Positions 26,848 to 53,095 of a stretch of DNA of 64,000 bases are shown in pieces. Location: NCBI RefSeq assembly GCF_900172295.1, contig NZ_FWFL01000005.1:248001-312000 (forward strand), read 5' to 3'. The stretch is from Roseovarius litorisediminis (GTDB taxonomy: Bacteria; Pseudomonadota; Alphaproteobacteria; Rhodobacterales; Rhodobacteraceae). A program made the position numbers and the translations under genes. The notes below the pieces were generated by a model. It was given only the letters and a program-made list of their open reading frames with translations. It searched no databases and was not told where the DNA came from. The first letter of the stretch is position 1, and each line of letters opens with the position of its first letter.

Positions 26848-27018
26848 ACCTGAAAATCCCTTTAATCGTTCAATTTGCACTTCTTTGCCAGCCCTGTCGA
26901 CCTGCGTCCACCCAAAATCTTGGCCGCGTAATCAAGGTGCGTACGCTGCCGGTGCATTTTCTTCATCTTTCGCAGCGCAGGTTTGCAGATATCCGAATTC
27001 AACCGTTGTGAGAGATTT

Positions 27019-30167: not shown

Positions 30168-30358
30168 AAATTATGACGTGACTTTGGCATTTCAGATCCA
30201 TGAAACTGTCGGGGCCCTTTCCCAAGGCTCGTGCTCAAGGAGTCCCAAAAACCTGTGGTCGCGCTCTTGACCGGCTAGGCCGACTGTTGCACAGACATTC
30301 ATGCGCAATGGCAATTTGGGGTAGTCCCAAGGAACGTTGATTGAGACAATCCGAAATC

Positions 30359-31441
30359 ATGACGAAAACCCTGATAATTCATATCGGCCATTACAAGACG
30401 GGAACCACAGCTCTTCAGGTGTTTCTTGAAGAAAATGCCCCGTTTCTGGAAACGATCGGCTGCGAATATTCTTTGGTTCGACTGGAGTATTCCAAGCATT
30501 CGGATTTTGCCTTTTCAATCCTGCGTGCTGCCGGTGTCGAGAATTTTATGCATGGTTATGGCAAACCCTACACCCCCAGGGAAATGTGGGGAGAACTGTT
30601 TGAGACGATCGAAAACTCAGACCTTGAAACCACCATCATCAGTTCCGAAGAGTTAATGCGCATCGGTCAGTTCCCGGCCGCTGCCAAAATACTTGGTGAC
30701 GTTCTGAAGGGCCGGCCTGAAGGTCTGAATGTCAGGGCAATCGTCTATTTGCGCGATCCGGCCTCACACCTTGAATCCTGGTACAATCAACTGATCAAAA
30801 TGGAATTTCCCCTGCCAGAGCTTAATCAGGCAGTCGATTGCGAAATCGAGGATATCCATTTTGACTACAGACGGGCAATCAACCCATGGGTCGATCTTCT
30901 GGGGCCGGAGAATGTGATTGTCCGCCCCTACATTGACGGACACGACGACCCTGCGGCCCTGCACCGCGATTTTCTGAAGGCAATCGGCGTCGAAACGAAA
31001 CAAGATCTGGCAGTGGAATTCGGCAACCTTAATCCACGTCTGGATGATCGGGCGATCGAGTTGTTGCGCCTGATGCAGAACATGGAGTTTCCACCGGTCA
31101 CGATAGAAAGAATTCGCACACAGTTACTATCCTACCTTGAGATTCAGGACGCCCGCGCATTGGAAAAGGGTGGAGGAATGGAAATGGTCCGTGCACGCGC
31201 GCGCGCCGGGGTTGAATGGCTTTCCGATCTGCCATTAAGCGCCATCCCCGTCGAAGATTTTACGAATGCTCTGCCTGAAGAAATACCGCAGCAAAAAGTC
31301 GAAACCAATCTGTTGATGGGGTTCATTTTTTCAGAACTTATTCGCCTTCGCCAACGCGTTAACCGCATCGAGGCCAAACAGGTCACTGCCCGGATCACTG
31401 AACTTGAGCGCAAGATTCAGGAACTGGAAGCGCGCGAATGA
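30359..31441 (+). CDS. Sulfotransferase-like protein with C-terminal coiled coil
   Basis: 360 aa. LIIHIGHYKTGTTALQVFLEE (residues 4-24) is the phosphosulfate loop, and AIVYLRDPASHLESWYNQLIKME near 130-152 the 3'-phosphate site. The last 45 residues (RLRQRVNRIEAKQVTARITELERKIQELEARE) form a predicted coiled coil, probably for self-association or binding a partner glycosyltransferase. ATG 30359 starts at the conserved motif; the frame extends only six codons upstream to a TTG. Its stop overlaps the glycosyltransferase start by ATGA, so both are translated together. Confidence 0.75.
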   Translation: MTKTLIIHIGHYKTGTTALQVFLEENAPFLETIGCEYSLVRLEYSKHSDFAFSILRAAGVENFMHGYGKPYTPREMWGELFETIENSDLETTIISSEELMRIGQFPAAAKILGDVLKGRPEGLNVRAIVYLRDPASHLESWYNQLIKMEFPLPELNQAVDCEIEDIHFDYRRAINPWVDLLGPENVIVRPYIDGHDDPAALHRDFLKAIGVETKQDLAVEFGNLNPRLDDRAIELLRLMQNMEFPPVTIERIRTQLLSYLEIQDARALEKGGGMEMVRARARAGVEWLSDLPLSAIPVEDFTNALPEEIPQQKVETNLLMGFIFSELIRLRQRVNRIEAKQVTARITELERKIQELEARE

Positions 31442-33072: not shown

Positions 33073-35924
33073 TCAGAGAAAGATAAAGTCTTGGTCGCCG
33101 ATCTGTGCTGACACGAGTCCCTCAAGCAACACGCTGCCGTCCTGCCAACTAAGAAAAAGCCCATCGGGCGTATCGTCAAAGGTGACAGACGCTGACGGTT
33201 TGGCAACGCTCAAAACATCAACATCCGGCGTGAAGTCAGTAATCCTGCGGTTGCCTGCCGCTACGCGGAAAACAAACACGTCGGCCCCGGCGCCCCCGTT
33301 TAGTTGGTCATCGCCGCCACCGGCGTCAATCGTATCGTTGCCCTGGCCGCCAAAAACTGTGTCGCGCCCATAGATATCCGACTGGTCAGAATCGACATAG
33401 GTATCGTTGCCGGCCTCAAGATAGGCCAGGTCGCGGCCCAAACCGCCATCAATCCAGTCGTCGCCGTCACCGCCAAATAACTTGTCATCGTGGCGCCCGC
33501 CAAACAGGCTGTCATTTCCTTCGCGACCGATCAGAAGGTCATTGTGCCAATTGCCATAGATCACGTCATCGCCGCCGCCGCCGTTGACCGTGTCATTGCC
33601 ATCACCGGCATAAATGGTGTCGGCGCCGTAATAGCCAGTTTGGTCATTGTCATCGAAGATATCGTCACCGGTCCCCAGATAGGCAACATCGCGACCGTTG
33701 CCGCCATCGACGACGTCATTTCCATCCCCGGCGTAGAGGGTATCAAACTGCCCGCCGCCGACCAGCAGGTCGTTTCCGGCACCTCCGGTCAGCACGTCAT
33801 GGCCATCCTGGCCATAGATCACGTCATCACCGCCGCCGCCGTTGACCGTGTCATTGCCATCACCGGCATAAATGGTGTCGGCGCCGTAATAGCCAGTTTG
33901 GTCATTGTCATCGAAGATATCGTCACCCGTCCCCAGATAGGCAACATCGCGACCGTTGCCGCCATCGACGACGTCATTTCCATCCCCGGCGTAGAGGGTA
34001 TCAAACTGTCCGCCGCCGACCAGCAGGTCGTTTCCGGTGCCTCCGGTCAGCACGTCATGGCCATCCTGGCCATAGATCACGTCATCGCCGCCGCCGCCGT
34101 TGACCGTGTCATTGCCATTACCGGCAAGGATCGTATCTTGCCCAAAAGCGCCAGACTCCGCACTATCTTGATAGGTGTCATTGCCAGAACCCAGACGGGC
34201 AAGGTCGCTTCCATCGCCGCCATCGACCGTGTCATCGCCGGCGCCGGAATCCAAAGTATCCTGGCCAGCCCCCCCAAAAGCCGGTCACCGCTGTCATAGC
34301 TGAAAATAAGATCATCGCCACTGAACGCTTCGATGACATCCTTTCCTGCGTGGCCGGTGATTGTATCATTTCCATTCGTTCCTTTGATGTTACGCTGAAC
34401 CAGCAACAGGGGCCTGTCCGGGCCATTCTGGATGGAAGCCAACACTGCTGCCCGTTCGAGCGGCGTAGAGTCATGGCTGTAAAGTTCCAACTGTTCGCCG
34501 CGCCATTCAATCACCGCGCCAAAGCTGGTCCTGGTAATGTTCAGAAATGTGGGATCGTAAAGAAATGGCAGCGCAGTCAGATCAAGGCGGTCCTGGACGA
34601 CGTTGAAGTCGGCAATGCGATCAACCGCGCCATCTGCATCAAGCACAAAAAGGTCGGCGCCTGCGCCCCCGGTAAGGGTATCCTGCCCGGCACCATCGAA
34701 AAGGATGTCGTCACCTGTCCCGCCAGAAATCCGGTCAATCCCGGCATTCCCGGACAGCAGGTCATCGCCTGCTGAACCAGACAGATCACCCGCTGCAGGC
34801 GCAGCGATGAAAACCGAACCGCTGTTGGCAACCGAAAAGGAAAGCTGCGTGATGCCGGCCTCGCCCTGACCAGCAACCAGTATCAGAACCTCGTCCCCGA
34901 TCTGCACCGCACTTATTGCGGATATGTTCTGGAGCCCGGTGAGATTGCTGTCGGCAAGGCTGGCAAGATGAACAAGGTGGCCGTGTGGCAACAGGGCCAG
35001 CACACTGATGCCATCATCCCCGCCGCCTGCGATGACATAGGTCAGGCCATTTACGGCAAGGGTCGCGACGCTCTGGACCTGGCCGAACCGTGTGTTGAGC
35101 GTGTCCAGTACATGATCCGTTGCAACCAGTTCACCCGTCGGCGTCAATCGCAGCACAGACAGGGCCCCCATTTCGCCGGTGGTGCTGGAAGACGCAACAA
35201 GCACATAGGCGTTACCCTGAACTGTAACAGCTTCGATTGCAGTGATTGCAGGCAGAAGACCAAGGCCATTTTCCGTTCCGATCACGCCGCGCAGTGTCAG
35301 TGCGCCCGTGCCGGGATCGACACTGTAACTACTCAAACCGGTTTCCGACCCGCTGGCAGCAACGACAAAATCGTTTTCGCTGAATCGAATGCTGGTCATT
35401 TCCGCAAGATCAAGCACATGGCTGTCGTCCCCGTCCAGCACCCGGGATACCTCGGCCAGGTTCCCAAGGCCGTCAGGCGCGTAGACGCCGATGCCCTGCC
35501 CATCTGCCATTGCCGCATAAACATAACCGGCGGCGGCAACATAAAGCCCACTGATCCCCGGCCCACCGTTAGCCGTCATTGAAATTTGCGTCTGTGCACC
35601 GATACCGTCCGATACAGTGGCTGTGTAGCCCCACAGCGCATTACCATCTGCAGCGCCAACCAGCAGAAGCGACTGCGCCCCAAGTTCCAGCAATGACAAG
35701 CCACCACTTAGCGCACCAATCGGCAGGTTTGGAAAGTACACCTCGTCAACCGGTACCGGCAGGCCGCCTTGAGAAAGAGCGTAACGCACCAATCCTCCGC
35801 CCGCGCCGGTGACAGACGTCAGGACCGGCCCGGCGCTGCCGGGCACGATATGCAGATCCACTATATTCATTGTCAGAGGTGAGGCTAACGCCCCGATCCA
35901 GCCCCCAACACGCAAATCAAGCAT
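33073..35924 (-). CDS. Large RTX calcium-binding protein, broken by a one-base frameshift
   Basis: Two overlapping frames (35924 to about 34275, then about 34269 to 33073) form one gene of about 950 codons once a single base is restored in the run of seven C at 34269-34275 (seven G on the coding strand). With eight G the sequence reads through as LLGGAGQDTLDSGAGDD, in register. N-terminal residues 1-380 look like a beta-propeller (VTSVTGAGGGLVRYALSQGG, GISVLALLPHGHLVHLASL). From about 385 there are GGxGxDxxx repeats (SGSAGDDLLSGNAGIDRISG) that bind calcium. Such proteins are normally secreted by a type I system; none is seen here. It lies beside the capsule exporter and may be a matrix or adhesin protein. 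ATG 35924 has AAGGA upstream. Confidence 0.8.
33553..34117 (-). repeat. 258-base tandem repeat inside the RTX gene
   Basis: The stretch beginning GTTGACCGTGTCATTGCC recurs at 33583, 33841 and 34099, spacing 258 bases (86 codons). The two full units differ by only a few bases, so one protein module, about GNDTVNGGGGDDVIYGQ... to ...DQTGYYGADTIYAGD, is repeated almost exactly. Confidence 0.85.
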
Positions 35925-36139: not shown

Positions 36140-36793
36140 TCAGGACAAGAGTTTGCGGTGCAACGCGATTGCTTCGTCCAGGTCCTCAAAATATTCCAGA
36201 CGCCCGTTTTCCAGAACAATACCTGCGTCACAGAATTGCTTTATCTGTCTCATGTCATGACTGACAAGAATGGCGCTGCTGGACTTGACGCGTTCACGAA
36301 AGATGGCGTGGCTTTTTTTCCTGAAAGAGGCGTCGCCCACCGAAGTGACTTCATCCACAAGATAGGTATCAAACTGAATGCCCATCGAAGTACCAAAGCC
36401 CAACCGGGCCCGCATACCCTGAGAATAGGTGCGAACCGGCATGTAAAAATGTTTTCCCAACTCGGCAAAATTTTCCACAAAGGCCACAAGCGCATCCGTA
36501 TCAACGCCGTAAATCCGGGCGATGAAACGTACGTTCTGGGCGCCGGTCATTTCGCGGTGAAAGGACGAGCCAAAACCGACAGGCCATGAAATAGTCCCAT
36601 CACTTACGACCCGGCCCTTATTGGGCCGTTGGGTGCCGGCGATCAAGTCAAGCAGGGTAGACTTGCCAGCGCCATTGCGCCCCAACAAAGCAAGCGAGAC
36701 ACCGGTGGGCAGGGTCAGATTCAGGTTGTCGATAACCAGCTTGCGCTGCCCGCGTACCATAAAGCTTTTTGATAGGGATTCGAAGCGGATCAT
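36140..36793 (-). CDS. kpsT: Capsule polysaccharide ABC exporter, ATP-binding protein (KpsT-like)
   Basis: 217 aa. Walker A GRNGAGKST at about 37-45, signature YSQGMRARLGFG near 130, Walker B TYLVDEVTSVGD near 152. The short length and lack of an extra C-terminal domain match KpsT/CtrD of group 2 capsule export rather than the Wzt O-antigen type. It works with the KpsM-like permease. It follows the KpsE-like gene with a 20-base gap. The 215-base gap downstream to the RTX gene shows no recognisable feature. Confidence 0.92.
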   Translation of the reverse strand: MIRFESLSKSFMVRGQRKLVIDNLNLTLPTGVSLALLGRNGAGKSTLLDLIAGTQRPNKGRVVSDGTISWPVGFGSSFHREMTGAQNVRFIARIYGVDTDALVAFVENFAELGKHFYMPVRTYSQGMRARLGFGTSMGIQFDTYLVDEVTSVGDASFRKKSHAIFRERVKSSSAILVSHDMRQIKQFCDAGIVLENGRLEYFEDLDEAIALHRKLLS

Positions 36794-36813: not shown

Positions 36814-38229
36814 TTAGCTGCGATCACGGATGCTGTAATAAATCAGCGCCATGATTGACCAGCTCAGGCCAAGGAACAGCGCCGCCAGACCGGAAAGTAC
36901 AAACCGGCGGGGAAACTCGGATTCGTCGGCAAGCGTCGGTTTGATATAGGTCGCCAGATAGCGGCTTTGACGCGAGGCATTGGCGCGGGCGACATCCATC
37001 GCTGTCAGAGCGGCGCGGTAGGTTTCTTCAGCAACTTCCCGATCCACAGTCAGACTTTCGAACTCGGCAATCAGTGTCGGATAGTCTTCACCCAGTTCAC
37101 CTACGTCGTTGCCATCGCTTGCAAAGGTCTGACGTTCGTCGGCGATACGATCACGGATTACTTCGATCCGGCGACGTGCCTGCAGCAGGCGGGGGTCGTT
37201 GACGTTTGTAGTTGTCTCAAGCAAAAGATCGTTGTCAATAAGCGCCTCTGCGAGTTGCTGTTGCAGGTTATTGAGAACGCCCATTCGGCCCTGAATATCC
37301 GCAACCGGGTCGACAATCTGGGTTCTTGTACGGAACTGTGTCAACGCCTCGCGCGCCTGTTTCAGCCGGTCAATCGCTGCGTTCAGATCATCCACGGCAT
37401 ACCCCATGGCGTCGTCACGGGCGGCGGTATTGAGAGCGTTGATCATGTCCTGGCTTTCGCGCACGATCGCCTGGGTGATGCTCTGTGCCATCCCGGGATC
37501 AAATGCCATAACCTGAAGGTCGATCAGGCCTGTCGCCTGATCATGTGACACCCGCACGACGCGTTGCCAGTGCCACAGCAGATCTTCGTCGCTGGCGTCG
37601 GGCCAGAGCGAAAACAAAGGATCGCGTTGCCAGTTGGTTGCGTAGTAATCCTTGAGACCAAGTTCGGAATCGATTTTCTGAACGATTTCCTGACTTTGGA
37701 TGTATTCGAACAGAATGTTGCTGTCCGCAGAGGCGGGGGTGCTTGCGAATTGTGCCAACCCTCCCAAAAGGTCCGAGGCACCGCCGCTTTCTTCCTGGCG
37801 CACCGTAAAGCCCGTGTTCGAGCTGTATTGATCAACGGCAACCATCCAAAGATACAGCACAATCGCTGCCAGCGGCAGCAGAACCAGGACCGCAAAACTG
37901 GCAAGAAGGCCCCAATGGCGGCGATGCATGGTTGCAGTTTCCGCGATGGGAAGCACCTGAATAATGGGGGGTTGGGCAGGCCCTTGACCCTGTTGTTGCC
38001 CAGGCCCCGGATTTGGCCCCGGCTTTTTACCGGGTCCGGGTCTTTGGCCTTGTTGCGGGGCGTGCCCTTTATTGGGGCCTTGATCCTGATGCGGTAATGG
38101 ATTGCCGCCCGGGCCTTTGCCCTGCGGCCCCGCCGGTTTTGGCTGTATCGCCACTTGCCCTTTATTGGCGCCCCCTGGCTGGTTGTTGCCCACATTTGGC
38201 CTGGGATTTGTATTGTCGTTGTTTGTCAA
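36814..38229 (-). CDS. kpsE: Capsule export inner-membrane/periplasmic adaptor (KpsE-like) with disordered N terminus
   Basis: 471 aa. Residues 1-105 are rich in Pro, Gly, Gln and Lys (PGGANKGQVAIQPKPAGPQG, GPGKKPGPNPGPGQQQGQGP), predicted disordered and cytosolic. A membrane helix (LLASFAVLVLLPLAAIVLYLWMV, about 108-130), a periplasmic coiled-coil region (about 230-420) and a second helix (FVLSGLAALFLGLSWSIMALIYY) near the C terminus give the KpsE/BexC/Wzz-like hairpin. It would link the permease to the outer-membrane channel. The start is most likely TTG 38229 with AAGGG upstream, since no in-frame ATG occurs before the first helix. It is divergent from the permease gene. Confidence 0.85.
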   Translation of the reverse strand: MTNNDNTNPRPNVGNNQPGGANKGQVAIQPKPAGPQGKGPGGNPLPHQDQGPNKGHAPQQGQRPGPGKKPGPNPGPGQQQGQGPAQPPIIQVLPIAETATMHRRHWGLLASFAVLVLLPLAAIVLYLWMVAVDQYSSNTGFTVRQEESGGASDLLGGLAQFASTPASADSNILFEYIQSQEIVQKIDSELGLKDYYATNWQRDPLFSLWPDASDEDLLWHWQRVVRVSHDQATGLIDLQVMAFDPGMAQSITQAIVRESQDMINALNTAARDDAMGYAVDDLNAAIDRLKQAREALTQFRTRTQIVDPVADIQGRMGVLNNLQQQLAEALIDNDLLLETTTNVNDPRLLQARRRIEVIRDRIADERQTFASDGNDVGELGEDYPTLIAEFESLTVDREVAEETYRAALTAMDVARANASRQSRYLATYIKPTLADESEFPRRFVLSGLAALFLGLSWSIMALIYYSIRDRS

Positions 38230-38318: not shown

Positions 38319-39140
38319 ATGTCCTCTGGTGACCCCCAAACCCAACCTCCGGCGCGAATAACTGGACTGCGAAGACGGCGCTTTGCAACGCCCCGCACAA
38401 TTACGGCTCTCATGCTGCGTGAGATGTCTACCCGCTATGGGGCGTCCCCCGGGGGGTACGCCTGGGCGATTGCCGAGCCATTGGGCATGATCATTATTCT
38501 GGGTGCCGCGTTTTCGTTGGTTTTGCGCACCCCATCGCTGGGCAGCAGCTTTCTGCTGTTTTATGCAACCGGGTTTCTGCCTTTCAACCTTTACCAAAGC
38601 CTGAATGGCATGATCATGCGGGCAATCTGGTTTTCCCGACCGTTATTGGGGTATCCGGCTGTCACGTGGATGGATGCGTTGCTGGCAAGGTTCATTCTGA
38701 ATTCTCTGACAGCGATTCTGGTCAGCTATATCCTTTTGGTCGGGATCATGATTGTTACCGAGACGCGCACCGTTCTGGATATGGGCCCGATTGTTCTGTC
38801 CATGGCCCTTGCCATGTTGCTGGGCCTTGGAACGGGCGCGCTGAATTGCCTTTTGATCGGATTGTTCCCTGTGTGGGAGCATGTCTGGTCAATTGCGATG
38901 CGCCCGATGTTTCTGATCTCCGCGGTCTTTTTCATTGTTGAAGATCTGCCCCCGTTTACCCAGAATCTCCTTTGGTACAATCCACTGGTCCATATCAGCG
39001 GTTTGATGCGGATGGGATTTTACCCGATGTATTCACCCGGCTATATCAGCGTAACCTATGTCGTTTCCGTTGCCTTGATCACCATGGCCCTGGGGTTTGT
39101 ACTTTTGGCAAGGTATCATCAGGACATCCTGAACCGGTAA
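38319..39140 (+). CDS. kpsM: Capsule polysaccharide ABC exporter permease (KpsM-like)
   Basis: 273 aa with six hydrophobic segments. The ABC2-type permease core has ALMLREMSTRYGASPGGYAWAIAEPLGMIIILG and the C-terminal FFIVEDLPPFTQNLLWYNPLVHISGLMRMGFYP, both typical of KpsM/BexB. With the KpsT-like ATPase it forms the channel moving finished polysaccharide across the inner membrane. It is transcribed away from kpsE-kpsT through an 89-base shared region. Confidence 0.92.
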   Translation: MSSGDPQTQPPARITGLRRRRFATPRTITALMLREMSTRYGASPGGYAWAIAEPLGMIIILGAAFSLVLRTPSLGSSFLLFYATGFLPFNLYQSLNGMIMRAIWFSRPLLGYPAVTWMDALLARFILNSLTAILVSYILLVGIMIVTETRTVLDMGPIVLSMALAMLLGLGTGALNCLLIGLFPVWEHVWSIAMRPMFLISAVFFIVEDLPPFTQNLLWYNPLVHISGLMRMGFYPMYSPGYISVTYVVSVALITMALGFVLLARYHQDILNR

Positions 39141-39182: not shown

Positions 39183-40178
39183 TCAGGCCTGTTCTTGTGA
39201 CAGTGCGATCACCGCCGTGTGCGGGCGATCGGTTCTGCATCTTAGACCATCAAGAATTCCAACCCATAGCAAGCGCAGATAGCCCCGGCGCACGCCGCTG
39301 TGGTCGGCGACTTTCAACACCCATTTAGGCAAGATCAGCAACAGCAGAGGCCAGAACATCCAACCCGCAGCCATTCGGTACAGCATCATCAGATTCCGGT
39401 GGTAGTAATAGACTTTCCAAAGTTGGTTAAAACGCCGTCGCTCGCCGGAAAAGGTTGAACACGCGTGCTCAAAATGAATTTCGGGTTGAAAGGCGATGCG
39501 ACCGCCTTGCTGGCTGAGTCCAAGAGTGTAGATGCCGTCATCGCCGTAAACAAACAGGGCCGGATCCGGGTATCCGGCCATATCAATTGCCCTGCGGGAC
39601 AGGAAAAGACCGACGAATGAGGTGATATCGACATGGCGCGCAGTGCTACCTTTGTAGTCTGCTGGTTTCAGGTGAAAGCCGTCGCGACCTCCGCCCAGTA
39701 TCAGAGTGCGCAGAAACACCCGCAGGTGCCAGAACGGATTTCGTGAAGGGCGGTTCATATCGCATATCTCACCGCCTGGGAGATACACGGCTGACGCCAC
39801 CGCATCCCAGCCGGAATGATCAAGTTCGTGAAATTTTCTTATGGCATCTGTGGCGGGTCGCCCGTCGTCATCCATCACCACAACCCAATCGGGGTCAAAG
39901 GTGGATGCCGCCGCACGCAGGCCGGTTGAAAAACCGCCTGCACCGCCGCTGTTTGTCTTTTGGCGGATAACATGCAGCCTTGCATTTCCAGCTGTCTCGG
40001 CCTGCAACCATTCGGCGGTGCCATCTGAACTGGCATTGTCAACGACAACCACCGATGCAAGCAAACTGGCAGGGCTTTCAAGCAGCCGGGTGACCGTCTG
40101 CCGCAGGTGTTCCAGACGATTATACGTCACCACCACTGCAACCAGCCGGCCCGCTGTTTTCGCATCAAGGTCTGACAT
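39183..40178 (-). CDS. Family 2 glycosyltransferase, galactofuranosyltransferase-like
   Basis: 331 aa GT-A fold. VAVVVTYNRLEHLRQTVTRLLES and DNASSDGTAEWLQ form the nucleotide-binding half, WVVVMDDDGRPATDAIRK carries the DDD metal site, and VDITSFVGLFLSRRAI then YGDDGIYTLGLSQQGGRI the acceptor half. The GGAGGFSTGLR and H-E/D-D motifs recall GlfT-type galactofuranosyltransferases. The presence of glf in the same locus supports this, but it remains an inference. ATG 40178 begins MSDLD with GGTGA upstream; a TTG 12 codons earlier is less likely. Confidence 0.85.
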   Translation of the reverse strand: MSDLDAKTAGRLVAVVVTYNRLEHLRQTVTRLLESPASLLASVVVVDNASSDGTAEWLQAETAGNARLHVIRQKTNSGGAGGFSTGLRAAASTFDPDWVVVMDDDGRPATDAIRKFHELDHSGWDAVASAVYLPGGEICDMNRPSRNPFWHLRVFLRTLILGGGRDGFHLKPADYKGSTARHVDITSFVGLFLSRRAIDMAGYPDPALFVYGDDGIYTLGLSQQGGRIAFQPEIHFEHACSTFSGERRRFNQLWKVYYYHRNLMMLYRMAAGWMFWPLLLLILPKWVLKVADHSGVRRGYLRLLWVGILDGLRCRTDRPHTAVIALSQEQA

Positions 40179-40362
40179 ATTCACCGATTCTTTTTGCAGC
40201 GATTTCTTAAGCAAAACTCACAAATAGGGACTGGTGTCAAATACCTGTGGTGTTCCCAAACTCGCGTCGTTTCCTGTAAAGTGCCAGAAGCCTTTGTAAG
40301 CAGTGACAAAACCAAATGCAGTTGGTAAACGTCATCCATTATTGAGACAGGAGTTTTCGACG

Positions 40363-40932
40363 TTGCTGATTGAACCTACGGCTTTGCCCGGACTGGTTGT
40401 TTTGACGCCCGCGCGCTACGGTGATGCTCGCGGCTTCTTTTCCGAAAGCTGGAACCGCCAGAGAATGGCAGAGCACGGTCTGGATTTCGACTTTGTGCAG
40501 GATAATCACTCGCTTTCTGTGGCGCAGGGTACGGTGCGTGGCTTGCATTTTCAGACCCCGCCCCATGCGCAGGCCAAGCTGGTGCGTTGTGGGCGCGGGC
40601 GGCTTTTGGATGTTTCCGTAGACCTCAGAAAAGGGAGCCCTACCTTTGGCAAATGGGTGGGTATCGAACTGAGTTTCGAGAACGGCAAGCAACTGTTGAT
40701 TCCGGAGGGATTTGCCCATGGCTTTGTCACGTGTGTCCCTGATACCGAAATCATCTACAAGTGCAGTGATTATTACGCCCCCGAGTGTGACCGCAGCCTG
40801 CGCTTTGATGACCCCGAGATTGGCATCGACTGGGGAATAGATGCGGGCGAAGCAATCCTGTCTGACAAGGATGCCGGGGCGCCACTGTTGGCCGATCTGG
40901 ACAATCCGTTCATCTGGGAAGGCTCACAATGA
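40363..40932 (+). CDS. rmlC: dTDP-4-dehydrorhamnose 3,5-epimerase
   Basis: 189 aa from the start chosen. Cupin epimerase: [56 protein letters not shown] (with the catalytic His), and [29 protein letters not shown] with the active-site Tyr. Start TTG 40363 has AGGAG nine bases upstream and matches where the family usually begins; the frame runs back to a GTG at 40303. Stop overlaps rmlB by ATGA. Confidence 0.93.
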
Positions 40933-41984
40933 AACTGCTGGTGACCGGGGGGGCGGGGTTTATCGGGTCTGCCGTTGTGCGGCTGGCCGTATCGCGTGGC
41001 ATTGAAGTGGTTAATCTCGACGCGCTGACCTATGCCGCCTGCCTTGAAAACCTGGCCCCGGTGGCCGACAACCCGCTGTATCATTTCGTCAAGGCCGATA
41101 TCCGTGATCCGGACGCGCTTGAGACTGTATTTGATGCCCATCAGCCCGACGCAGTGATGCATCTGGCCGCAGAAAGCCATGTCGACCGTTCGATTGACGG
41201 GCCCGGTGCCTTTATCGAAACCAACGTTACCGGCACCTATAACCTGCTGCAGGCTGCACGTGCTTATTGGGAGGGGAAGGGCAGGCCGGATACGTTTCGG
41301 TTCCATCATATCTCGACCGACGAGGTGTACGGTACATTAGGCGATACCGGCCTGTTTACCGAAGATACGCCCTATGCGCCCAACAGTCCCTATTCTGCGT
41401 CCAAGGCAGCATCCGACCATCTGGTGCGGGCCTGGGCCGAAACCTATGGCCTGCCGGTGGTGATCACCAATTGCTCAAACAATTACGGCCCCTATCATTT
41501 CCCCGAAAAACTGGTGCCGGTGGTGATCCTGAATGCGTTGGCGGGCAAGCCGATCCCGGTTTATGGCAAGGGCGAAAACGTGCGCGACTGGCTGTATGTC
41601 GAGGATCACGCCGATGCTCTTTTGTGTGTGCTGAAAAATGGCGAACGCGGTCGCAGTTATAATGTCGGCGGCGAAAACGAAGCGAAGAACATAGATCTGG
41701 TGCGTATGATCTGCGCCATTCTGGACCGTCTGAAACCGGCCGAAACGCCCTATGCCGATCAGATCACCTTTGTCACTGACCGGCCCGGCCATGACCTGCG
41801 CTATGCTATTGATCCCACCCGCATCCGGACAGAACTGGGCTGGAAACCTTCGGTCACGCTGCAAGAGGGGTTAGAGAAAACCGTGCAGTGGTATCTTGAT
41901 AACGAGGCCTGGTGGCAGGCGTTGCAGGCGCGCGACGGCGTGGGCAAACGGCTGGGCACCGGCACATCAGGGCCCGCGAAATGA
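40929..41984 (+). CDS. rmlB: dTDP-glucose 4,6-dehydratase
   Basis: 351 aa extended [18 protein letters not shown] binds [18 protein letters not shown] carries the catalytic Thr, Asp and Glu, and [15 protein letters not shown] the Tyr-x3-Lys pair. Second enzyme of dTDP-rhamnose synthesis. Translationally coupled to rmlC before and rmlD after through ATGA overlaps. Confidence 0.96.
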
Positions 41985-42844
41985 AGCTGCTGGTGTTTGG
42001 CAAAACCGGTCAGGTCGCCACAGAACTGGCGCGCCTTGAAGGCGACGCATTTACCCAGGCGGTGTTTTTGCCCCGCGATCAGGCCGATTTGTCCGACCCC
42101 AAAGCGTGCGCGGCGATCATAACGGAGACGCAGGCCGACGCGGTGATCAACGCCGCAGCCTGGACTGCCGTGGACAACGCCGAAGAGCACGAGGCCGAGG
42201 CAATGGTCATCAACGCCGATGCGCCCGGCGCCATGGCGCGCGCCTGTGCGGACCGAGGCCTGCCGTTTCTGCATGTTTCGACCGACTACGTGTTCGACGG
42301 CGCGGGCGAGACCCCCAGGAAAGAAACCGATCCCGTTGCGCCGCAAAACGCTTATGGGCGCGGCAAGCTGGCTGGGGAAAATGCCGTGCGGGCGGCAAGC
42401 GGTCCGCATGCCATTCTGCGCACTTCATGGGTGTTTTCATCTCATGGGGCGAATTTTGTCAAAACCATGCTGCGCCTGTCCGAAACTTGCGACGCGCTGT
42501 CGATTGTAAGTGATCAGCACGGCGGACCAACCCCCGCGGCAGATATTGCTGCGGCACTGGTTAAGATGGCCCATGCCATGGTTCAGGGGCAGCCGGGCGG
42601 CACCTATCATTTCGCGGGTCAACCCGACACAACATGGGCCGGGTTCGCCCGCGAGATTTTTGATCAGGCGGGCAGGGATGTGACGGTGACAGGAATCCCG
42701 ACCCGAGATTTTCCGACGCCGGCCACGCGCCCGCTCAACTCGCGTCTGGATTGCAGCGCCCTGGCGGCTGATTTTGCCATTTCCCGACCTGACTGGCGGC
42801 AGGGATTGCACCACGTGCTGGACGAGATGAGGGGTAAAAACTAG
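41981..42844 (+). CDS. rmlD: dTDP-4-dehydrorhamnose reductase
   Basis: 287 aa. [15 protein letters not shown] is the NADPH loop, [34 protein letters not shown] holds the Tyr-x3-Lys active site and the family's VFDG motif. It performs the last step to dTDP-L-rhamnose. The ATG at 41981 overlaps the rmlB stop by ATGA; the frame extends further upstream only inside rmlB. Order here is rmlC-rmlB-rmlD, with rmlA elsewhere. Confidence 0.95.
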
Positions 42845-42946: not shown

Positions 42947-44812
42947 ATGAGCCTGCCAAAGGTTTCAGTCATAGTGCCGGTCTACAACGTGGCCGACCAT
43001 GTTGCGGCCTGTATAATGTCGGTCGCAGAACAGAATTTTACCGATTTCGAGGTTATCGTCGTCAACGACGGATCAACAGATGGCAGCGACCGGATCGCCC
43101 GCAAGATCGCGGCAGGGGATCCGCGCTTTAGTTTTATCGACCAGCCCAATGGTGGCCTTTCAAAAGCCCGCAATACCGGGATCGACGCCGCCCGTGGTGC
43201 ATTTGTGGCCTTTGTCGACAGTGATGACCGGGTGGCGCCCGATTACCTGTCAGAGTTGATGACCGCCCTGCACGAAAGTGGTGCTGATTGGGTCTCCTGC
43301 GCTGTAGGATTCTGCCATCCGGGTGCTGCACCACAACCCCATTCCGCCGTTCACGGGGCACCTTCGGTTTCGCCCGAAACACCGCCCGAGCGGCATGATT
43401 TCAGCGACTGGCGTGAGGTTGCACGCCATTTTCCCTCGGCGTGGAACAAACTTTATCGCCGGTCCCTGATTGGCGACATCCGGTTTGATGAGGATCTTCT
43501 GTATGAAGATCACGCATTTTTCTGGCGCTGCGCTGAAAAAACGGATCATCTCTTGCGCCTCTCCAAATCCCTTTACCTGCAGACACAGGGGCGTGAAGGG
43601 CAGATTACCCGGGATGGCTCGGACCGGGTATTCGAGCAATTTACAGTTTTGGATAGCCTGGCCGATATCGTCGCAGTGTCGGGCAAATCGGGCGGGGCGC
43701 AGGCGCTGGCACAGATTGCCACAAGGCTAAGTTTTGAGCGGTCTACGGCAATTACCGATCCGAAACGCCGGGTTCATTTTTTAAACAGGGCGCGCGACTG
43801 GTTAGCAGGTTGCGCCTTGACGCCTGATGCTGCTTTGGGTGTTCCGGCCAGCTGGATCAGTTCCCTGCAGGGGCGTATTCCGGTGACCATTGTCATTCCC
43901 AGCGACGGCAACCCCGGTCCTTTATGCGATACGCTGACCGCTCTGTCTGCCCAATCCCTGCGCGAGACTGAAATCCTTGTTGTTCCCGACGAGAGGCGCA
44001 CCACCGCAGGGTCTGATACATACGCGGCAATTCTTGCAGAGACCCGATCCCGCCCAAATGTCGCGGTTGTGGCTGGTGCATCGGGTGTACCGGACGCGCG
44101 CAATCGTGGGCTAGTCGCTGCCCGCGGTGAAACGGTTGTTTTTCTGGACGCCGGCGACAAGGTGCCGCCGCAAGCGCTTATGGCTTGGCACAATCAGTTA
44201 CACCTGGCCGACGCAGACATGGGGTTTTCGCGATTTTTCATGGGCGGAAGTAATACGCCTCATGAGGGTCTGCATGACCATACCGGAATCGCACCCGAAC
44301 GGCGAAATTCTGAAACAGGGTTTGAACCGGATACGGGCGACGCCCTTGAAATCCATGCCCATCCTTCGGCCAAGATTTTCAAACGTGATTTTCTGCTGCG
44401 TCATGCGATCACCTTTGCGGACCATCCGCTGTCGTCCTGGGGGTTTTTAATTGCGGCTGTGACGCAGGCCTCGCGGATTGTGGGGTTGCGTGGGCATCCG
44501 GCACGTATCGCTGTCCGACCTGAAACGCGGATATTTTGGCGAGCTCCGGTCGAAGCGGCGCAATTGGCTGCTGCGTTAGAGTCGATTGCACATACCCTGC
44601 CGCCTGATGTCCTGCCTGAAGGCTGGCAGGCCCGGCTATGGGCGCGCGCCATCTGGGAAAAAGTGAATTTCGCCGATTTCCAGACGCAGGCCGCACGCGA
44701 CGCATTCGAAGCGGACGCCGGGGAAATTTCCGGCCAGATCCCCGGACTGGCGCAGACACAATCGCTTGATCCTTTCATTGGCCCGCGGGTTCGCCGAATT
44801 CTGGGCCTGTGA
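42947..44812 (+). CDS. Double-domain family 2 glycosyltransferase
   Basis: 621 aa. The first GT-A domain (about 5-250) has VSVIVPVYNVADHVAACIMSV, VNDGSTDGSDRIAR and the metal motif DSDD at 91-94. The second (about 305-520) starts VTIVIPSDGNPGPLCDTLTALSAQSL but its motif reads DAGD at 401-404 instead of DxDD, so this half may be inactive. It may be a polymerase-like or bifunctional transferase of the polysaccharide. It follows rmlD by 102 bases, in the same direction and probably on the same transcript. Confidence 0.85.
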   Translation: MSLPKVSVIVPVYNVADHVAACIMSVAEQNFTDFEVIVVNDGSTDGSDRIARKIAAGDPRFSFIDQPNGGLSKARNTGIDAARGAFVAFVDSDDRVAPDYLSELMTALHESGADWVSCAVGFCHPGAAPQPHSAVHGAPSVSPETPPERHDFSDWREVARHFPSAWNKLYRRSLIGDIRFDEDLLYEDHAFFWRCAEKTDHLLRLSKSLYLQTQGREGQITRDGSDRVFEQFTVLDSLADIVAVSGKSGGAQALAQIATRLSFERSTAITDPKRRVHFLNRARDWLAGCALTPDAALGVPASWISSLQGRIPVTIVIPSDGNPGPLCDTLTALSAQSLRETEILVVPDERRTTAGSDTYAAILAETRSRPNVAVVAGASGVPDARNRGLVAARGETVVFLDAGDKVPPQALMAWHNQLHLADADMGFSRFFMGGSNTPHEGLHDHTGIAPERRNSETGFEPDTGDALEIHAHPSAKIFKRDFLLRHAITFADHPLSSWGFLIAAVTQASRIVGLRGHPARIAVRPETRIFWRAPVEAAQLAAALESIAHTLPPDVLPEGWQARLWARAIWEKVNFADFQTQAARDAFEADAGEISGQIPGLAQTQSLDPFIGPRVRRILGL

Positions 44813-44945
44813 CAGGACCAGATCTTCAGGAAGATAAAGAATTAAACCCCCGGATGTGCGGACTAAGGTTTGCGTCCCGGTTAAAATATCGTCAAAAAGG
44901 AATAGGCGACGACCCTTATCAATGCGGGTTGTGAGGAGTTACAAG

Positions 44946-47900
44946 ATGTTTGATTTCCGGACGATTGGCGGTGCAGATTTCGGCTATTTGGTGGACTTTT
45001 CCGAATATGACTATGCCAATGTATCTTTTTTCGACAAGCACCGGAAAAACATCCCCTTTCACCTTTCGTTGCGGCGCAAAACCGGACTTGCAGTTATCAA
45101 TACACGGCTGGATGGCACGTGGGCCGACGAGATTTACAAGGAAGTGACCCTCGCCCGCCGGGGCGACAAGGTGACAATAAATTTTGAAAAGAATGATTTT
45201 GTTTGCGTTCGTCTGAACGGCAACGATCTGTTTAGTTTTGAAGGTGATTTTGCCGGCCTCAGCGAAATCCAGCTTGTTGAGTTCAATGGCGGCCTGGTAC
45301 AGGACAGCCTTGAAGTTCAGGGCCCGGCAAACAAAAACCGCGAAAGTCTGGGCAGTCTTGAGCTTGCCGGATATCTTGATATTCAGGGCTGGTCCATCGA
45401 CCCCGGACTGCCGCGCCAAAACCCTGAGATAACGATTGAAGGGCTGACCGAAGCCATCCTGGTTGAACGTAGGCCAATGCTGAATCTGGCTGCGGCGCAT
45501 GGCTTGTCTGATCCTCAGGTTGGTATCTATGCAGTTTTGCCCGGGCGTATATGGGAGGCAGCGCCAGACGGCGAAAATCTTACAATCAGCCTGAGTAACA
45601 ATGGTTTTGCTTGTGGCAAACCGCTGATCCTGACCCGCAAAGAGGTTCTTCAGCGGATCGAACGTATGTGCCGTCAGGACTCGGCCGAAAATAATACCTT
45701 TGAGCAACTTCTGGCGATAGAACATGTTCACTTTGGTGAATTTTGGGAGGCCCTGTCGCCACACGCGCAGGCCGTACTGCAAAAAGCAGCGACAACATTC
45801 GGGGTTTCCGACTTTTTGAACACCTCTGATACCGGTGCGGTACGTGTTCAACCTGAAGAACCCGAAAGCCGTTTGCTTGGAAAAATACGGGGCTTGTACG
45901 CTGAATACCTGTCGCAGACACAGAACCCGGATCGCATCGCGATTTTGGGAAAACTGCTTGACGACTACCCGCTGGCGCCTGCCAGGCTGCACGAGTTGGT
46001 TTTAACTCTCACCGAAGAATTCTGCCAGGCAGGCAGCTTTCACGAGCTTTATGGTCTTGCGCATTCTTATGGTCTAAGGGGATTTGGGCCCGCTGAAGAC
46101 AATTGGCGGAATACGTCAACTTTGCCGTACCTTTGCCGGGAAGGACGCCTGGAAGACGCGCAGGCGCTTATGTGGCAAATTGCAAATACTCATGGCGAAG
46201 GTGGTAGGAAAAGCGGGTGGCTGGTAACTTCCGCTCTGAATTGGAGCATCAGATTCTTCATAACCGAGTGCAACACGCCGTCCAAATTTGATTATCTGAA
46301 GCAATTCATCTACGCATTTTTCGCTTTGGTTGATAAATGCAGTCTTGCCTATTTCGATTTCACCCCAAGTACCGAATTGATCGATGCCACTACAACGTTG
46401 CTATCAAACTCAGACCGTTTGCCGGAAGATTTTGGCGGCGAAATTGAAACATTTGCGCTGCGGGTTTTTGGGCTTTCAAACCATTTTTGGGAACGGGTCG
46501 CCGACGAGATATCCAACGGCAACATAGAACCCAGTCCGCGCCTTGAAACGGGTGCGTCCTGCTTCGATCTGATGCGTCAACGTATGTCCGACAAGACTGT
46601 GGATGTTGAACCTGCCCTTGCCTTTTTCCAAGCTTTCAAGACCGTGGATGTAGAAAGATTCCGGCTCGAGCTTCTGGGCCCGCTCGGACTCCAACGACCA
46701 AAGGACAAGGATATTCTTGATGCTCTGCTGATATCAGGGCGAGACCCCTCTGAAAGTGTGATGCGGTACCTTGGTTTTCCGGGCGTGCAAGCCCCTAGAT
46801 CAGGCGCTTTGGACATGGTTGCTCGTGATGCCGTACGTGCTCGATACCTCAAGTCAAAAAAGGCGCCATATTATAATCTGCAGTTTGATATCAGTCGGTA
46901 TATTATTGATTTTACTGCCAGTTTAGACACCAAAGACAGCGGAAATCGAGTTGAATCCCTCAGGGCAATTTTGGATAGAATTCAGCTGCTTTCGTCAAAG
47001 CAAAGCGAGTTTCTGGGCATCGGGATGGCGATCAATCTTTTTCAGTTACTGATTAAGATCGACCGCGAAGATCTGGCGCTGCATGTCATGGCCTGGATCG
47101 GGGCAATCCGGGCCGAACTTCCGAAAGAGCAACAGGTAGGCCTGTTTGAAGCACCCGCAATACATTGCGCGCTGATGTCATTGCATGTGACGGCTGAAGG
47201 GCTTGGTAGTGAACTGGGGCACAGTGTTTCCCGCTTGTTCCCGCGCTTTGACCCAAAGGCGATAGATCTGCCTGTCGGCGGGCCCATGGCAAAGCAAAGG
47301 AATGCTGGCTCGGCTTTGTTTGACACGCTTGTGGTGGTATTCTCGTGTAAGCAAAATCTCAACAGCCGCGTGGCCAGCATGCGCGACGGCTGGTTGTCCA
47401 AACTGCAAGAACTGGGTGTCCCCTTTCTGGTGGTTGTCGGTGACGGCGAGGGGCAGCTGGTCGATGACGTGTTACATGTCGATGCCAGTGACAGCTACGA
47501 AGGGCTTCCGCAAAAAACGCTGGCCTCGGTCAAGTGGGTCTACGAGAACACGTCGTTTTCGCATATGTTCAAGATTGATGATGATTGTTTTCTGGACCCC
47601 GAAGAATTTTTCCTGTCACAAAGCTATCGCAAATTTGACTATTACGGGCGGCGTCTGGAGCGGGTTTTGGGCCAGATGGACAGAACATGGCATTTCTCGA
47701 AATCCACCTCTGAGCGGGGTCGCAAAGAACTGGACAAATCCCCCGAGCCTTCCGAATACGCCGATGGTGGTAGTGGATATGCGCTTAGCCGCAAAGCCAT
47801 GCAATGCATCACCCGCAACAGCCAGACGGAAGCGGGCCAACGGCTTGTCAGTGCCAGTTTCATGGAGGACAAGACCGTCGGTGACCTGCTTGCAATGAGC

Positions 47901-49049
47901 AACATTCGCGTTGCAGACGAAGACTATTACGTGTCCATTCGCAGACGCAGTTACAAAGACGCCACACCGGTGGCGATGTGGGAAAACAGTTTCAATGCAG
48001 GGTCGTCAACGCCGGTCAAGCAGGTGCATCTTGATAATCAGGCCGATCAGAAATCCGCCTTTCAGGGTTTGAAATCCTCGGGGCTTTTCCCCAAGAAAAT
48101 CTGGCCCACCTATGGCAAGGCCCGTCTGGGCGACGCCACCAATATTCTGGAACTGATCAGCGATCAGAGCAAACTTGAAAAGCTCAACGCCGAGCCGCTG
48201 GCTGTTGTTGCCTGTGTGCGCAACGAAATGTTCATGCTGCCGCATTTCCTGGCGCATTATCGCAAATTGGGCGTTAAGGCCTTTCTGGTAGCTGACAACT
48301 GCTCTGACGATGGCACGCTGGATTACCTGCTGGATCAACCGGATGTGGCAGTTTTTTCGGTCGATACTCTTTACAAAGATTCGCAGTATGGCGTTGCCTG
48401 GCAGATCAACATTCTGGCCAATCTCAGGGTGGGCCGCTGGTCTTTGCTGGCCGATGCTGACGAATTACTGGTCTATCCGGGTTGGGAAAAGACCAAACTG
48501 CCGAAACTTCTTGCGGGCCGCGATTACAAGGACACTGATGCCGTCCGGATCTTAATGCTGGACATGTATCCCCAGAGGCGGCTGAGTGACGTAGAATTCA
48601 AAAGTGGCGATCCGTTTTCTGAGGCAGGTTTCGTTGATAAAACCCCCTTCATCGACAACCCTTCGGGGCGAGGCCCGTTTTCGGATGGCCATACGGTTTC
48701 TTCGGCGCTGCGTCACCGGTTGTTGCCGTCATCGCGGCGCGATCTGTTTGTGGCGCAAAAAATCGCCCTGCTGAAATACAAACCCTGGATGCGGCTTTCG
48801 GCCGGGCTTCATTATGTCGCTGATGTCAAACAGGCCCAGGCCGAAATGATCTTTGGGCATTTCAAATATAATGCCCATTTCCGGCAAAAGGCCTTGGCCG
48901 AAGTGGCCCGGGGCCAGCATTTCAATAATGCCGAAGAGTACCGCCGATACCTGGCGCTTACTGCGGAAGGTCGGGAAGTGATATATGATCCGGCAGTGTC
49001 GGTGCCCTGGCGCGAGTGTGAAACTGTAAAGCGCCTCTTGAAATGCTGA
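44946..49049 (+). CDS. Very large three-module protein: galectin-like + GT31-like + GT2-like
   Basis: 1367 aa. Residues 5-120 look galectin-like: H39-L-S-L-R43, N52, W59-A-D-E62 and N91 fall in the order H-x-N-x-R...N...W-x-x-E of galectins, with Asn replaced by Ser41 and the final Arg missing. Residues about 138-235 (LELAGYLDIQGWS...) are a second beta-rich unit; 240-780 is helical and unrecognised. Residues about 790-1040 resemble family 31 galactosyltransferases: D849-SYEGLPQKT, K876-I-D-D-D880 and YADGGSGYALS. Residues about 1080-1340 are GT2-like: VACVRNE near 1090, D1170-A-D1172-E1173. ATG 44946 is chosen because GAGGAG lies 8 bases upstream. No signal peptide or membrane helix, so cytosolic. 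It lies between the double GT2 and glf genes. Confidence 0.75.
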   Translation: MFDFRTIGGADFGYLVDFSEYDYANVSFFDKHRKNIPFHLSLRRKTGLAVINTRLDGTWADEIYKEVTLARRGDKVTINFEKNDFVCVRLNGNDLFSFEGDFAGLSEIQLVEFNGGLVQDSLEVQGPANKNRESLGSLELAGYLDIQGWSIDPGLPRQNPEITIEGLTEAILVERRPMLNLAAAHGLSDPQVGIYAVLPGRIWEAAPDGENLTISLSNNGFACGKPLILTRKEVLQRIERMCRQDSAENNTFEQLLAIEHVHFGEFWEALSPHAQAVLQKAATTFGVSDFLNTSDTGAVRVQPEEPESRLLGKIRGLYAEYLSQTQNPDRIAILGKLLDDYPLAPARLHELVLTLTEEFCQAGSFHELYGLAHSYGLRGFGPAEDNWRNTSTLPYLCREGRLEDAQALMWQIANTHGEGGRKSGWLVTSALNWSIRFFITECNTPSKFDYLKQFIYAFFALVDKCSLAYFDFTPSTELIDATTTLLSNSDRLPEDFGGEIETFALRVFGLSNHFWERVADEISNGNIEPSPRLETGASCFDLMRQRMSDKTVDVEPALAFFQAFKTVDVERFRLELLGPLGLQRPKDKDILDALLISGRDPSESVMRYLGFPGVQAPRSGALDMVARDAVRARYLKSKKAPYYNLQFDISRYIIDFTASLDTKDSGNRVESLRAILDRIQLLSSKQSEFLGIGMAINLFQLLIKIDREDLALHVMAWIGAIRAELPKEQQVGLFEAPAIHCALMSLHVTAEGLGSELGHSVSRLFPRFDPKAIDLPVGGPMAKQRNAGSALFDTLVVVFSCKQNLNSRVASMRDGWLSKLQELGVPFLVVVGDGEGQLVDDVLHVDASDSYEGLPQKTLASVKWVYENTSFSHMFKIDDDCFLDPEEFFLSQSYRKFDYYGRRLERVLGQMDRTWHFSKSTSERGRKELDKSPEPSEYADGGSGYALSRKAMQCITRNSQTEAGQRLVSASFMEDKTVGDLLAMSNIRVADEDYYVSIRRRSYKDATPVAMWENSFNAGSSTPVKQVHLDNQADQKSAFQGLKSSGLFPKKIWPTYGKARLGDATNILELISDQSKLEKLNAEPLAVVACVRNEMFMLPHFLAHYRKLGVKAFLVADNCSDDGTLDYLLDQPDVAVFSVDTLYKDSQYGVAWQINILANLRVGRWSLLADADELLVYPGWEKTKLPKLLAGRDYKDTDAVRILMLDMYPQRRLSDVEFKSGDPFSEAGFVDKTPFIDNPSGRGPFSDGHTVSSALRHRLLPSSRRDLFVAQKIALLKYKPWMRLSAGLHYVADVKQAQAEMIFGHFKYNAHFRQKALAEVARGQHFNNAEEYRRYLALTAEGREVIYDPAVSVPWRECETVKRLLKC

Positions 49050-50551: not shown

Positions 50552-53095
50552 TTACCCGCCTGTCAGCGCCGCCAGCAGATCTTTGGCAAGCGGTTTAGCC
50601 TTACCGGTGCTGGTCTGGCGCCAATGTTGGCTGCCCAGTTTTGCGCTTAGCCGGTTGTGCATGACGATTTCGCGCTCGGCTTTGCCCCCTTCCAGAATGC
50701 GGATCGCGTGAGTTCCGTTGTCCGCAACCCTCTGAGCCAGAATATGGGTGACCGACCGGCTGAGCAAACCGGGGCCCGTTTTCGACCATGTCGTTTCATT
50801 GGAACGCTGCAATAAAGCGCCCCGCGCCCGGCGCGCGGCCAAGATCAAGGCGGGGTGGCCTGGCTGAGATGCGATAAAGTTATTCCCTACCGCGTTGCCC
50901 AAGGCCTCGTGAAACAGGACCAGACCATTACCGGGGGCAAGCAACTGAGTCAGATCGCCAACCAGCCGGTCATCAGCATCCGCCCAGATGCCGCCGTAAC
51001 GGGTCAGCAGACACAACCGCAGCAGATCAGCCTCTTCTGCGGGATTGTTTGCCAGGTTAAAGGCCTGCACCCATTTTGGACCAAAACTTTTGCGCAACAG
51101 CGCCAGCGCGCCGGGGCGGTCATAAACCTGCCAGTCTATCCCCGGCAAGTCCTGCCAGCTTTGCATCAGGCGGTCCACCTCGCGGGGTCGGTCAGATCTG
51201 TCCCAGTATTGATAGATCTTCGCCGGGATGGGGCGGGCCTGATCAGGGTTCGGCTGCCGCCTCTCGTCCTGCATCCATTCGGCCAGAAAACGCAGCGCCG
51301 CGATATTGGATCGGGGGCGCTTCAGCACCTCCTCGGCCAGACGGTCCACTCCCATGGGTTCCGATGCAAAATTCAATCCATTGCGATGTTCGATTTCCAG
51401 CTCGCCGTAAAGCTGGCCATTTAACGATATCGACCAATGGGGATGTCTGTCCGTAGACAGGTTGTCATTGTAAGTGCGCTCGAATCTGGCCTTTTCATAC
51501 AGGCCCAGAGAAATGTACTGGCGCAGTAAATCCGCAGCATGATAGCGGCTTTCGGGGTCCAGTTTTCTGGCTTCGTTTACGGCGGCCTCGGCCCGGGGCA
51601 GATCAGCCTTGTGAACATATAAACTGGCTGTCATCTGCCATTGCCGCATCCGGGCAGATTTGGCTGGATGGGGTTGATCCTTGATCAGCTTCAGGGCGTC
51701 ATCAAATCGGCCGCTTTTTATCAGTGCCTGAACCAGAAGGCCCTGTAATTCCATCGCCAGAGGCCAACGTCGCAGGGCAAAGCGCAAATAGCGGATTGCC
51801 AATCCCAACTCGGCCAGACCGACCAACGCCCGGGCAATGAACGCACTGCGCTGCACGGTTGCGGTGCGATTGGTGGGCGTGCGCAGATGTGCCAGCATTG
51901 CATTGTAATCCCCAACTGCATGCAGGCTGCTGGCAATGGCATTGACCGCCCGTGGCTTTGGCGTGTGCCCCAAAAGCTTATTCAGCATTTCGGGCTCTGG
52001 TGGCAGGTCGCCTTGTTCCAGGGCAAAAAGCAGCATCTGCCTATTTCCCGGGAATTGCGCAAGACACCGCCGGATCACGTCCTCGCGTTCTTCATGGCGT
52101 TTCAACAAGGTCAACTGCCGGGCCAGTTCGACATGCATTGCAGCCGAAGCACCGCCTTCATCCAAGAGGTGTTGAAGTTGCATTACCATGTTTTCCGAAT
52201 GGCCCAGTACTGTCATCAATTGACCATATTCAGCAACAAGGCCCGGGGCCTTTCCCAGGTCAAAATCGCGCATCACGGCTTCGGCCAGTTTCAGCTCGCG
52301 TTGCTGGGTCAGCAAACTGGCCAATTTCAGCCTGGACCTGTTATGCTGGGGGTGGTCACTTAACCAGTCCGTCAGCGCTTTGATTGCTTCAATAAAACGG
52401 GCCCCGGCCGTCAGCGTGTCTATCTGCACCATGAGATATTCAAAGTTGCCCGGAGCCTTCTGGCGAACCTTGGTGATCAGCGTCTGTGCCTGCACCAAGT
52501 CACCATTTTGCAACGCCAAACGGGCCAATACGGCGCTGCAGGCAGGGTTGTCGGGCTGCTTCTTGAGCAGGGAACGGGCCACGGTCCCGGCTTCGTCAAA
52601 TGCCAGATCCTGGAGCAGCGCTTGTGCTAGGCGCGCCTGATATTCTGCGTTGTCCGTCATTTTGGCAGCGGCCCGCCTGAAATGTTTCACCGCTTGTGAA
52701 TTTTGCCCCGCCGCCTGCAGGGCTTTGCCCCGGATAAAAAGATATCTCGCGGTTTGTGCATCGGTTGCTGCAGTGATTTCATCGGGCAGTTGGGCCAGGT
52801 CCACCGGCCGTCCCTGTTTCAGATCAAGGTCGGCAATCTCGCTCAGCAGGATCGGGTTTTGGGGCTCAATTTCCAATGCCCGTTTTGCGCAACGTCGGGC
52901 TAGTTCTGGCATGGCTGCGCGCCCTGCTAACCTTGTGGCGCGCAAGAGTGGCTGAACCTGCTTTATCACCTGCAGCGTGTCACTGGTGATTTCCTTCAAT
53001 ACTGTCTGCGCTTTTTTCTGACTGCCCGAATCCAGCTGGGCCAGCGCCCGGTTCAGCAAATTGGGCAGGGGGGGCGGGGTGGGTTTTTTGGTCAT
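50552..53095 (-). CDS. TPR-repeat protein with C-terminal sugar-binding-region glycosyltransferase
   Basis: 847 aa. Residues about 1-590 are TPR-like helical repeats (NPILLSEIADLDLKQGRPVDLAQL, YQARLAQALLQDLAFDEAGTVARSLLKKQPDNPACSAVLARL). Residues about 620-840 are a GT-A transferase of the DXD sugar-binding region/GT32 type: IPAKIYQYWDRSDRPREV, then DLLRLCLLTRYGGIWADADDRLVGD with the D-A-D metal motif near 700. TPR-fused transferases of this kind glycosylate polysaccharide or protein. It is transcribed opposite to glf, with a 17-base gap at the convergent ends. No signal peptide, so cytosolic. Confidence 0.8.
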   Translation of the reverse strand: MTKKPTPPPLPNLLNRALAQLDSGSQKKAQTVLKEITSDTLQVIKQVQPLLRATRLAGRAAMPELARRCAKRALEIEPQNPILLSEIADLDLKQGRPVDLAQLPDEITAATDAQTARYLFIRGKALQAAGQNSQAVKHFRRAAAKMTDNAEYQARLAQALLQDLAFDEAGTVARSLLKKQPDNPACSAVLARLALQNGDLVQAQTLITKVRQKAPGNFEYLMVQIDTLTAGARFIEAIKALTDWLSDHPQHNRSRLKLASLLTQQRELKLAEAVMRDFDLGKAPGLVAEYGQLMTVLGHSENMVMQLQHLLDEGGASAAMHVELARQLTLLKRHEEREDVIRRCLAQFPGNRQMLLFALEQGDLPPEPEMLNKLLGHTPKPRAVNAIASSLHAVGDYNAMLAHLRTPTNRTATVQRSAFIARALVGLAELGLAIRYLRFALRRWPLAMELQGLLVQALIKSGRFDDALKLIKDQPHPAKSARMRQWQMTASLYVHKADLPRAEAAVNEARKLDPESRYHAADLLRQYISLGLYEKARFERTYNDNLSTDRHPHWSISLNGQLYGELEIEHRNGLNFASEPMGVDRLAEEVLKRPRSNIAALRFLAEWMQDERRQPNPDQARPIPAKIYQYWDRSDRPREVDRLMQSWQDLPGIDWQVYDRPGALALLRKSFGPKWVQAFNLANNPAEEADLLRLCLLTRYGGIWADADDRLVGDLTQLLAPGNGLVLFHEALGNAVGNNFIASQPGHPALILAARRARGALLQRSNETTWSKTGPGLLSRSVTHILAQRVADNGTHAIRILEGGKAEREIVMHNRLSAKLGSQHWRQTSTGKAKPLAKDLLAALTGG

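Follow-up and report, generated by a model that had tools for sequence, protein, structure and literature searches.

The window analysed here is a 64,000-nucleotide stretch of Roseovarius litorisediminis (contig NZ_FWFL01000005.1, positions 248,001 to 312,000), and at 44946-49049 on the forward strand it carries an uninterrupted open reading frame encoding a 1367 amino acid (aa) protein that joins a galectin-type domain to two glycosyltransferase (GT) domains, one of family GT31 and one of GT2. The protein belongs to PF01762 and PF13704 and, by fold and profile, to the galectins. Among relatives its galectin sugar site is near-invariant, as are the active sites of its two transferases; it is associated with a protein carrying two GT2 stretches (GT2-GT2), and its locus has KpsM/T/E-like export genes. 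On balance, the galectin-GT31-GT2 protein probably acts in the cytoplasm within a capsule-type polymerase, where the galectin domain would hold a growing beta-galactoside chain and the two transferases would add sugars in turn. The parts of the frame are as follows.

44933-44938 (+): likely ribosome-binding site GAGGAG, from the sequence, preceding the ATG at 44946
44946-45329 (+): galectin-type domain, residues 1-128, with H39, S41, R43, N52, W59 and E62 (45060-45131)
45345-45635 (+): second beta-rich domain, residues 134-230, from the secondary structure of the model; no Pfam match
45636-47300 (+): connecting region, residues 231-785, with a helical beginning (231-259 in the model); no Pfam match
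47301-48170 (+): GT31 domain, residues 786-1075, with DDD 878-880, GG 941-942, MED 973-975 and H1028
48171-49049 (+): GT2 domain PF13704, residues 1076-1367, with DADE 1170-1173

Pfam profiles were placed at residues 25-116 (PF00337), 835-988 (PF01762) and 1092-1189 (PF13704), and the protein gave no match to NCBIfam at E 1e-3. In a profile search of the genome (E 0.001) it was the sole PF00337 match and the sole PF01762 match. A longer GTG start at 44856 was set aside, as the start at 44946 is preceded by GAGGAG and, of the 39 relatives aligned, 90% or more retain its Met. No membrane anchor was seen by hydropathy alone (highest 19-residue mean 1.39). The connecting region is likely a scaffold; the predicted structures cover the residues on either side of 261-785.

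The galectin fold is a sugar-binding fold best known in animals and fungi. An earlier note on this DNA, made from the sequence, had proposed a galectin domain from the residue spacing H39-x-S-x-R43, N52 and W59-x-x-E62; all of these positions were exact in the translation, and the claim held, as the predicted structure of the N-terminal domain adopts a galectin beta-sandwich by fold search. The PF00337 score was slightly below its cut-off of 22.1 bits over the whole protein (21.1 bits, E 2.2e-4) and above it for residues 1-260 alone (24.5 bits), with 25.9 bits in the genome search, and PF00337 was matched in 41 of 66 aligned rows at E 1e-3. When the 128 columns were ranked by conservation over 66 rows, the six galectin positions took ranks 1-6 (hypergeometric 1.8e-10). 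Chance resemblance was rejected on this ranking together with the galectin fold. Residue counts were taken over the 120 relatives listed out of 503, one of them the window's own protein: H39 was kept in 119, S41 in 119, R43 in 118, N52 in 114, W59 in 119 and E62 in 114. All six residues (HSRNWE) were complete in 70 of 81 rows, made up of 80 named loci and the window; three further rows were cut, three differed solely at S41 and five were changed at two or more positions. Compared with the canonical galectin site (H44, N46, R48, N61, W68, E71 and R73), H, R, N, W and E are present and near-invariant, N46 is replaced by Ser and the R73 position varies. The first domain of the nematode galectin 4hl0 likewise shows H-x-S-x-R in the alignment. 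Stand-alone galectin-domain relatives were not found at E 0.01 among 669 candidates, a result of little weight since the exact-word method missed eukaryotic galectins too.

These site data bear on whether the galectin domain is merely a structural or docking module that binds no sugar. The changed site in 5 of 78 rows, the Ser at the Asn46 position and the presence of GRIFIN, a galectin relative whose binding is weak or lost in some species, among the best Foldseek rows all point that way. Against this, the six site positions top the 128 for conservation while the identity of the domain to the window's copy drops to 19-48% in 35 aligned relatives, and a pure scaffold would not be expected to keep its sugar site above its core; we consider a silent galectin improbable. 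The alignment from the galectin-only search (A5) held 35 of the 80 loci plus the window, with the five changed-site rows excluded. Those five (L056, L071, L074, L076 and L087) have at least two galectin site residues altered and both transferase active sites intact, and such natural relatives offer a ready comparison.

The GT31 domain scored 40.2 bits against PF01762 (cut-off 23), a profile matched in all 55 rows of alignment A3 at E 1e-3, and residues 786-1060 fit GT31 both by profile and by fold. The earlier note's assignment of this region to GT31 is thus borne out, with its D849-S-Y, KIDDD 876-880, GGSGYALS 941-948 and MED 973-975 exactly placed; assignment of residues 786-1060 to GT2 instead was ruled out by the PF01762 matches and the fold search. 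The second transferase it had read from DADE 1170-1173, also exactly placed, is the PF13704 GT2 domain (78.5 bits, cut-off 27.5). PF01697 (GT92) was not among the four Pfam families matched at E up to 1, and despite this poplar GalS1 (GT92) was the best listed fold match. The top Foldseek rows were human chondroitin synthase CHSY3-CHPF (9q8z, 9o4g), with an alignment spanning both transferase domains. The GT-A parts named for B3GNT2 are a DxD motif, a Gly-rich loop, an xED base and a C-terminal His (PMC7948508). Assigned in our protein by sequence order, without superposition, these parts were found over 81 rows as DDD in 81, G941 in 81, G942 in 76, MED in 81 and H1028 in 81. A search with the GT31 domain (A4) returned 27 proteins of 160-503 aa, several of them labelled partial or on short contigs.

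The same architecture recurs widely in bacteria. Searches at E 1e-3 gave 503 protein relatives, and a genome scan gave 127 relative loci, of which 80 were retained, so that the joining of galectin and GT31, which the earlier note had called a eukaryotic arrangement, is also the regular architecture of one family of bacterial proteins. The 80 loci are nearly all from Rhodobacterales, the outliers being Bordetella petrii, Methylobacterium, Methylobacter, Sulfurisoma and Azonexus (L066, L067, L076, L087 and L091); HSRNWE is whole in L066 and L067. Across 292 genomes of the order PF00337 was matched in 12 and PF01762 in 15, and all 12 lie within the 15, with both matches in one frame of 1364-2085 residues. 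Across the phylum PF00337 was matched in 2 of 398 genomes, both from the window's own family. Neither profile was matched in the other 10 genomes listed for the genus, and the locus is therefore likely accessory.

The upstream gene probably belongs to this picture.

42947-44812 (+): protein with two GT2 stretches (PF00535 twice), from the Pfam and architecture scans

A relative of this GT2-GT2 protein is fused to the N terminus of the galectin-GT31-GT2 protein in 23 of 77 loci, and in 32 more it is the immediate upstream neighbour with the same orientation (55/77 fused or directly upstream), the 77 being the loci with a long frame after L055, L072 and L090 were dropped as cut. The GT2-GT2 protein is therefore a likely partner, and the full machine seems to include it. 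By eye L063 and L065 also have the gene upstream, beyond the 32; they count as "none" in this tally since their frames read long upstream, and as "adjacent" in the tree. In L019 and L023 the gene lies behind, on the opposite strand. On the tree (quick method, no bootstrap) the fused, adjacent and no-partner states were clustered, with at least three changes forced for "fused". The fused chains reach about 1800-2060 aa, with up to four transferase stretches and the galectin in one protein.

Known GT31 enzymes are mostly eukaryotic, and the plant GALT enzymes place their galectin domain first. Plant GALT1-GALT6 are GT31 enzymes with PF00337 and PF01762, GALT2-6 being hydroxyproline O-galactosyltransferases, and the plant enzymes are predicted to sit in the Golgi membrane as type II proteins (PMC4687291). 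The likeness to this plan drawn by the earlier note holds for the presence of both families in one chain, with PF00337 marginal over our whole protein. It fails on build, as about 660 residues separate galectin from GT31, no type II anchor is seen by hydropathy and an extra GT2 transferase follows; in architecture the protein is not a GALT of the plant kind. Descent from a plant-like galectin-GT31 enzyme by inter-kingdom transfer draws on the shared pair of families in GALT1-6 and on the patchy spread (PF01762 in 15/292 genomes of the order and 0/10 listed genomes of the genus). The same differences of spacing, following GT2 and anchor speak against it, and we regard it as very improbable.

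CHSY3-CHPF aligns over both transferase domains, but its whole-chain superposition is poor (rmsd 22-23 Å) and it has no galectin; its second domain belongs to another family. The beta-1,4-galactan synthase GalS1 (8d3t) lacks GT31 and carries as its binding module a CBM95, N-terminal to GT92. Toxascaris leonina galectin (4hl0) is a nematode protein with two galectin domains and no enzyme domains. Multi-domain bacterial capsule polymerases, such as E. coli K4 chondroitin polymerase (2z87), Pasteurella heparosan synthase (8vh8) and the polymerases of PMC5974469, likewise have more than one transferase activity per chain. The K4 and heparosan enzymes both occur in the Foldseek list. To our knowledge none of these polymerases has a galectin or GT31 domain. 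The protein may function most like chondroitin-type or capsule copolymerases, and both its key domains are common to plant GALT1-6.

As a capsule-type polymerase, the protein would act in the cytosol. The linkages proposed from the fold neighbours B3GalT5/6 and GalS1 are beta-1,3 for the GT31 domain and beta-1,4 galactosyl for the GT2 domain. The product would hold a beta-galactoside, whose binding by the galectin could make the enzyme more processive or select the acceptor, and the polymer would leave through an ABC exporter. Binding of a galactoside and its extension with two linkages, as the earlier note had suggested, may fit such a protein.

Each part was already known; we found no description of the bacterial galectin-GT31 assembly in the titles and abstract openings among the literature matches listed. 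Galectins are described as widespread in fungi and animals (PMC13084444). Weighing against novelty, PF00337-type lectin domains have been counted in cyanobacteria (PMC10655256), and the protein database already annotates PF00337 with PF01762 on many relatives, one of them named 'Galactose binding lectin-like'. That this is a working bacterial galectin in a lectin-guided polysaccharide polymerase, gripping the chain extended by GT31 and GT2 and paired with GT31 independently of plants, is a proposal we hold tentatively and with some doubt.

The surrounding genes bear on the nature of the product.

33073-35924 (-): two overlapping RTX-repeat frames, adjoining the export genes
36140-36793 (-): KpsT-like export ATPase, 217 aa, PF00005; matched at E 1e-35 to 2e-22 by NCBIfam export ATPase models (teichoic acid, galactan and Vi), all below their cut-offs
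36814-38229 (-): KpsE/CtrB/BexC-like export protein; TIGR01010 E 2.2e-61, 208 bits, below the cut-off of 437.5
38319-39140 (+): KpsM-like ABC-2 permease, PF01061; NF050053 KpsM E 7.6e-21, below cut-off
39183-40214 (-): GT2, nearest NCBIfam model GlfT1 galactofuranosyltransferase; E 1.7e-18, below cut-off
40303-42844 (+): rmlC, rmlB and rmlD, dTDP-rhamnose supply; PF00908, PF16363/PF01370, PF04321
49338-50534 (+): UDP-galactopyranose mutase (GLF); TIGR00031 316.2 bits, above the cut-off of 303.75
50552-53095 (-): protein of 847 aa, rich in TPR repeats, with a DXD sugar-transferase domain (PF04488) at its C terminus

Relatives of KpsM, KpsT and KpsE are all present by E-value, each below its NCBIfam cut-off. 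PGM and a UDP-glucose/GDP-mannose dehydrogenase complete the same side-by-side gene group, which uses both strands. In the 54 loci with enough flank, counted without a background rate, at least two Kps-like genes were found in 30 and none in 23, with GLF in 21 and GT4 in 39.

The enzyme could instead build or decorate an O antigen exported by an ABC transporter, a glycolipid, or an exported protein, for instance one of the RTX proteins encoded close by, with the galectin picking that acceptor. The rmlBCD genes, GLF and the ABC-2 exporter would equally fit O antigen, two RTX-repeat frames lie nearby and RTX-like frames are present in 22 of the 54 flanked loci, and KpsC/S lie outside the window: PF05159 gave five matches in two frames on another contig of the genome (C34) and none within the window. 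Arguing for capsule are the KpsE/CtrB/BexC-like protein, at E 2.2e-61, and the short 217-aa ATPase, which has no C-terminal extension of the kind that O-antigen Wzt ATPases carry; RTX repeats are common and cross-match easily. We consider a non-capsule product unlikely. The neighbouring mutase fits the earlier note's reading of a locus that makes galactofuranose. A variant of the capsule polymerase in which one domain transfers galactofuranose, rather than galactopyranose, from the mutase's UDP-galactofuranose, the galectin binding another part of the polymer, is in accord with an AfGfsA row among the fold matches, and appears rather improbable to us.

Further upstream in the window lie a nucleotidyl transferase and possible rmlA (25978-26880), ManC, a DUF2793 protein amid the sugar genes (26983-28044, +) and a sulfotransferase (PF03567; 28199-28846, +), with a second frame at 30341-31441 (+) in which PF13469 matches weakly (E 0.076). 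Sulfation of the exported glycan is a possibility. The KpsC/KpsS-type frames on contig C34 (289353-293526) flank a Poly_export match and are perhaps a second capsule locus.
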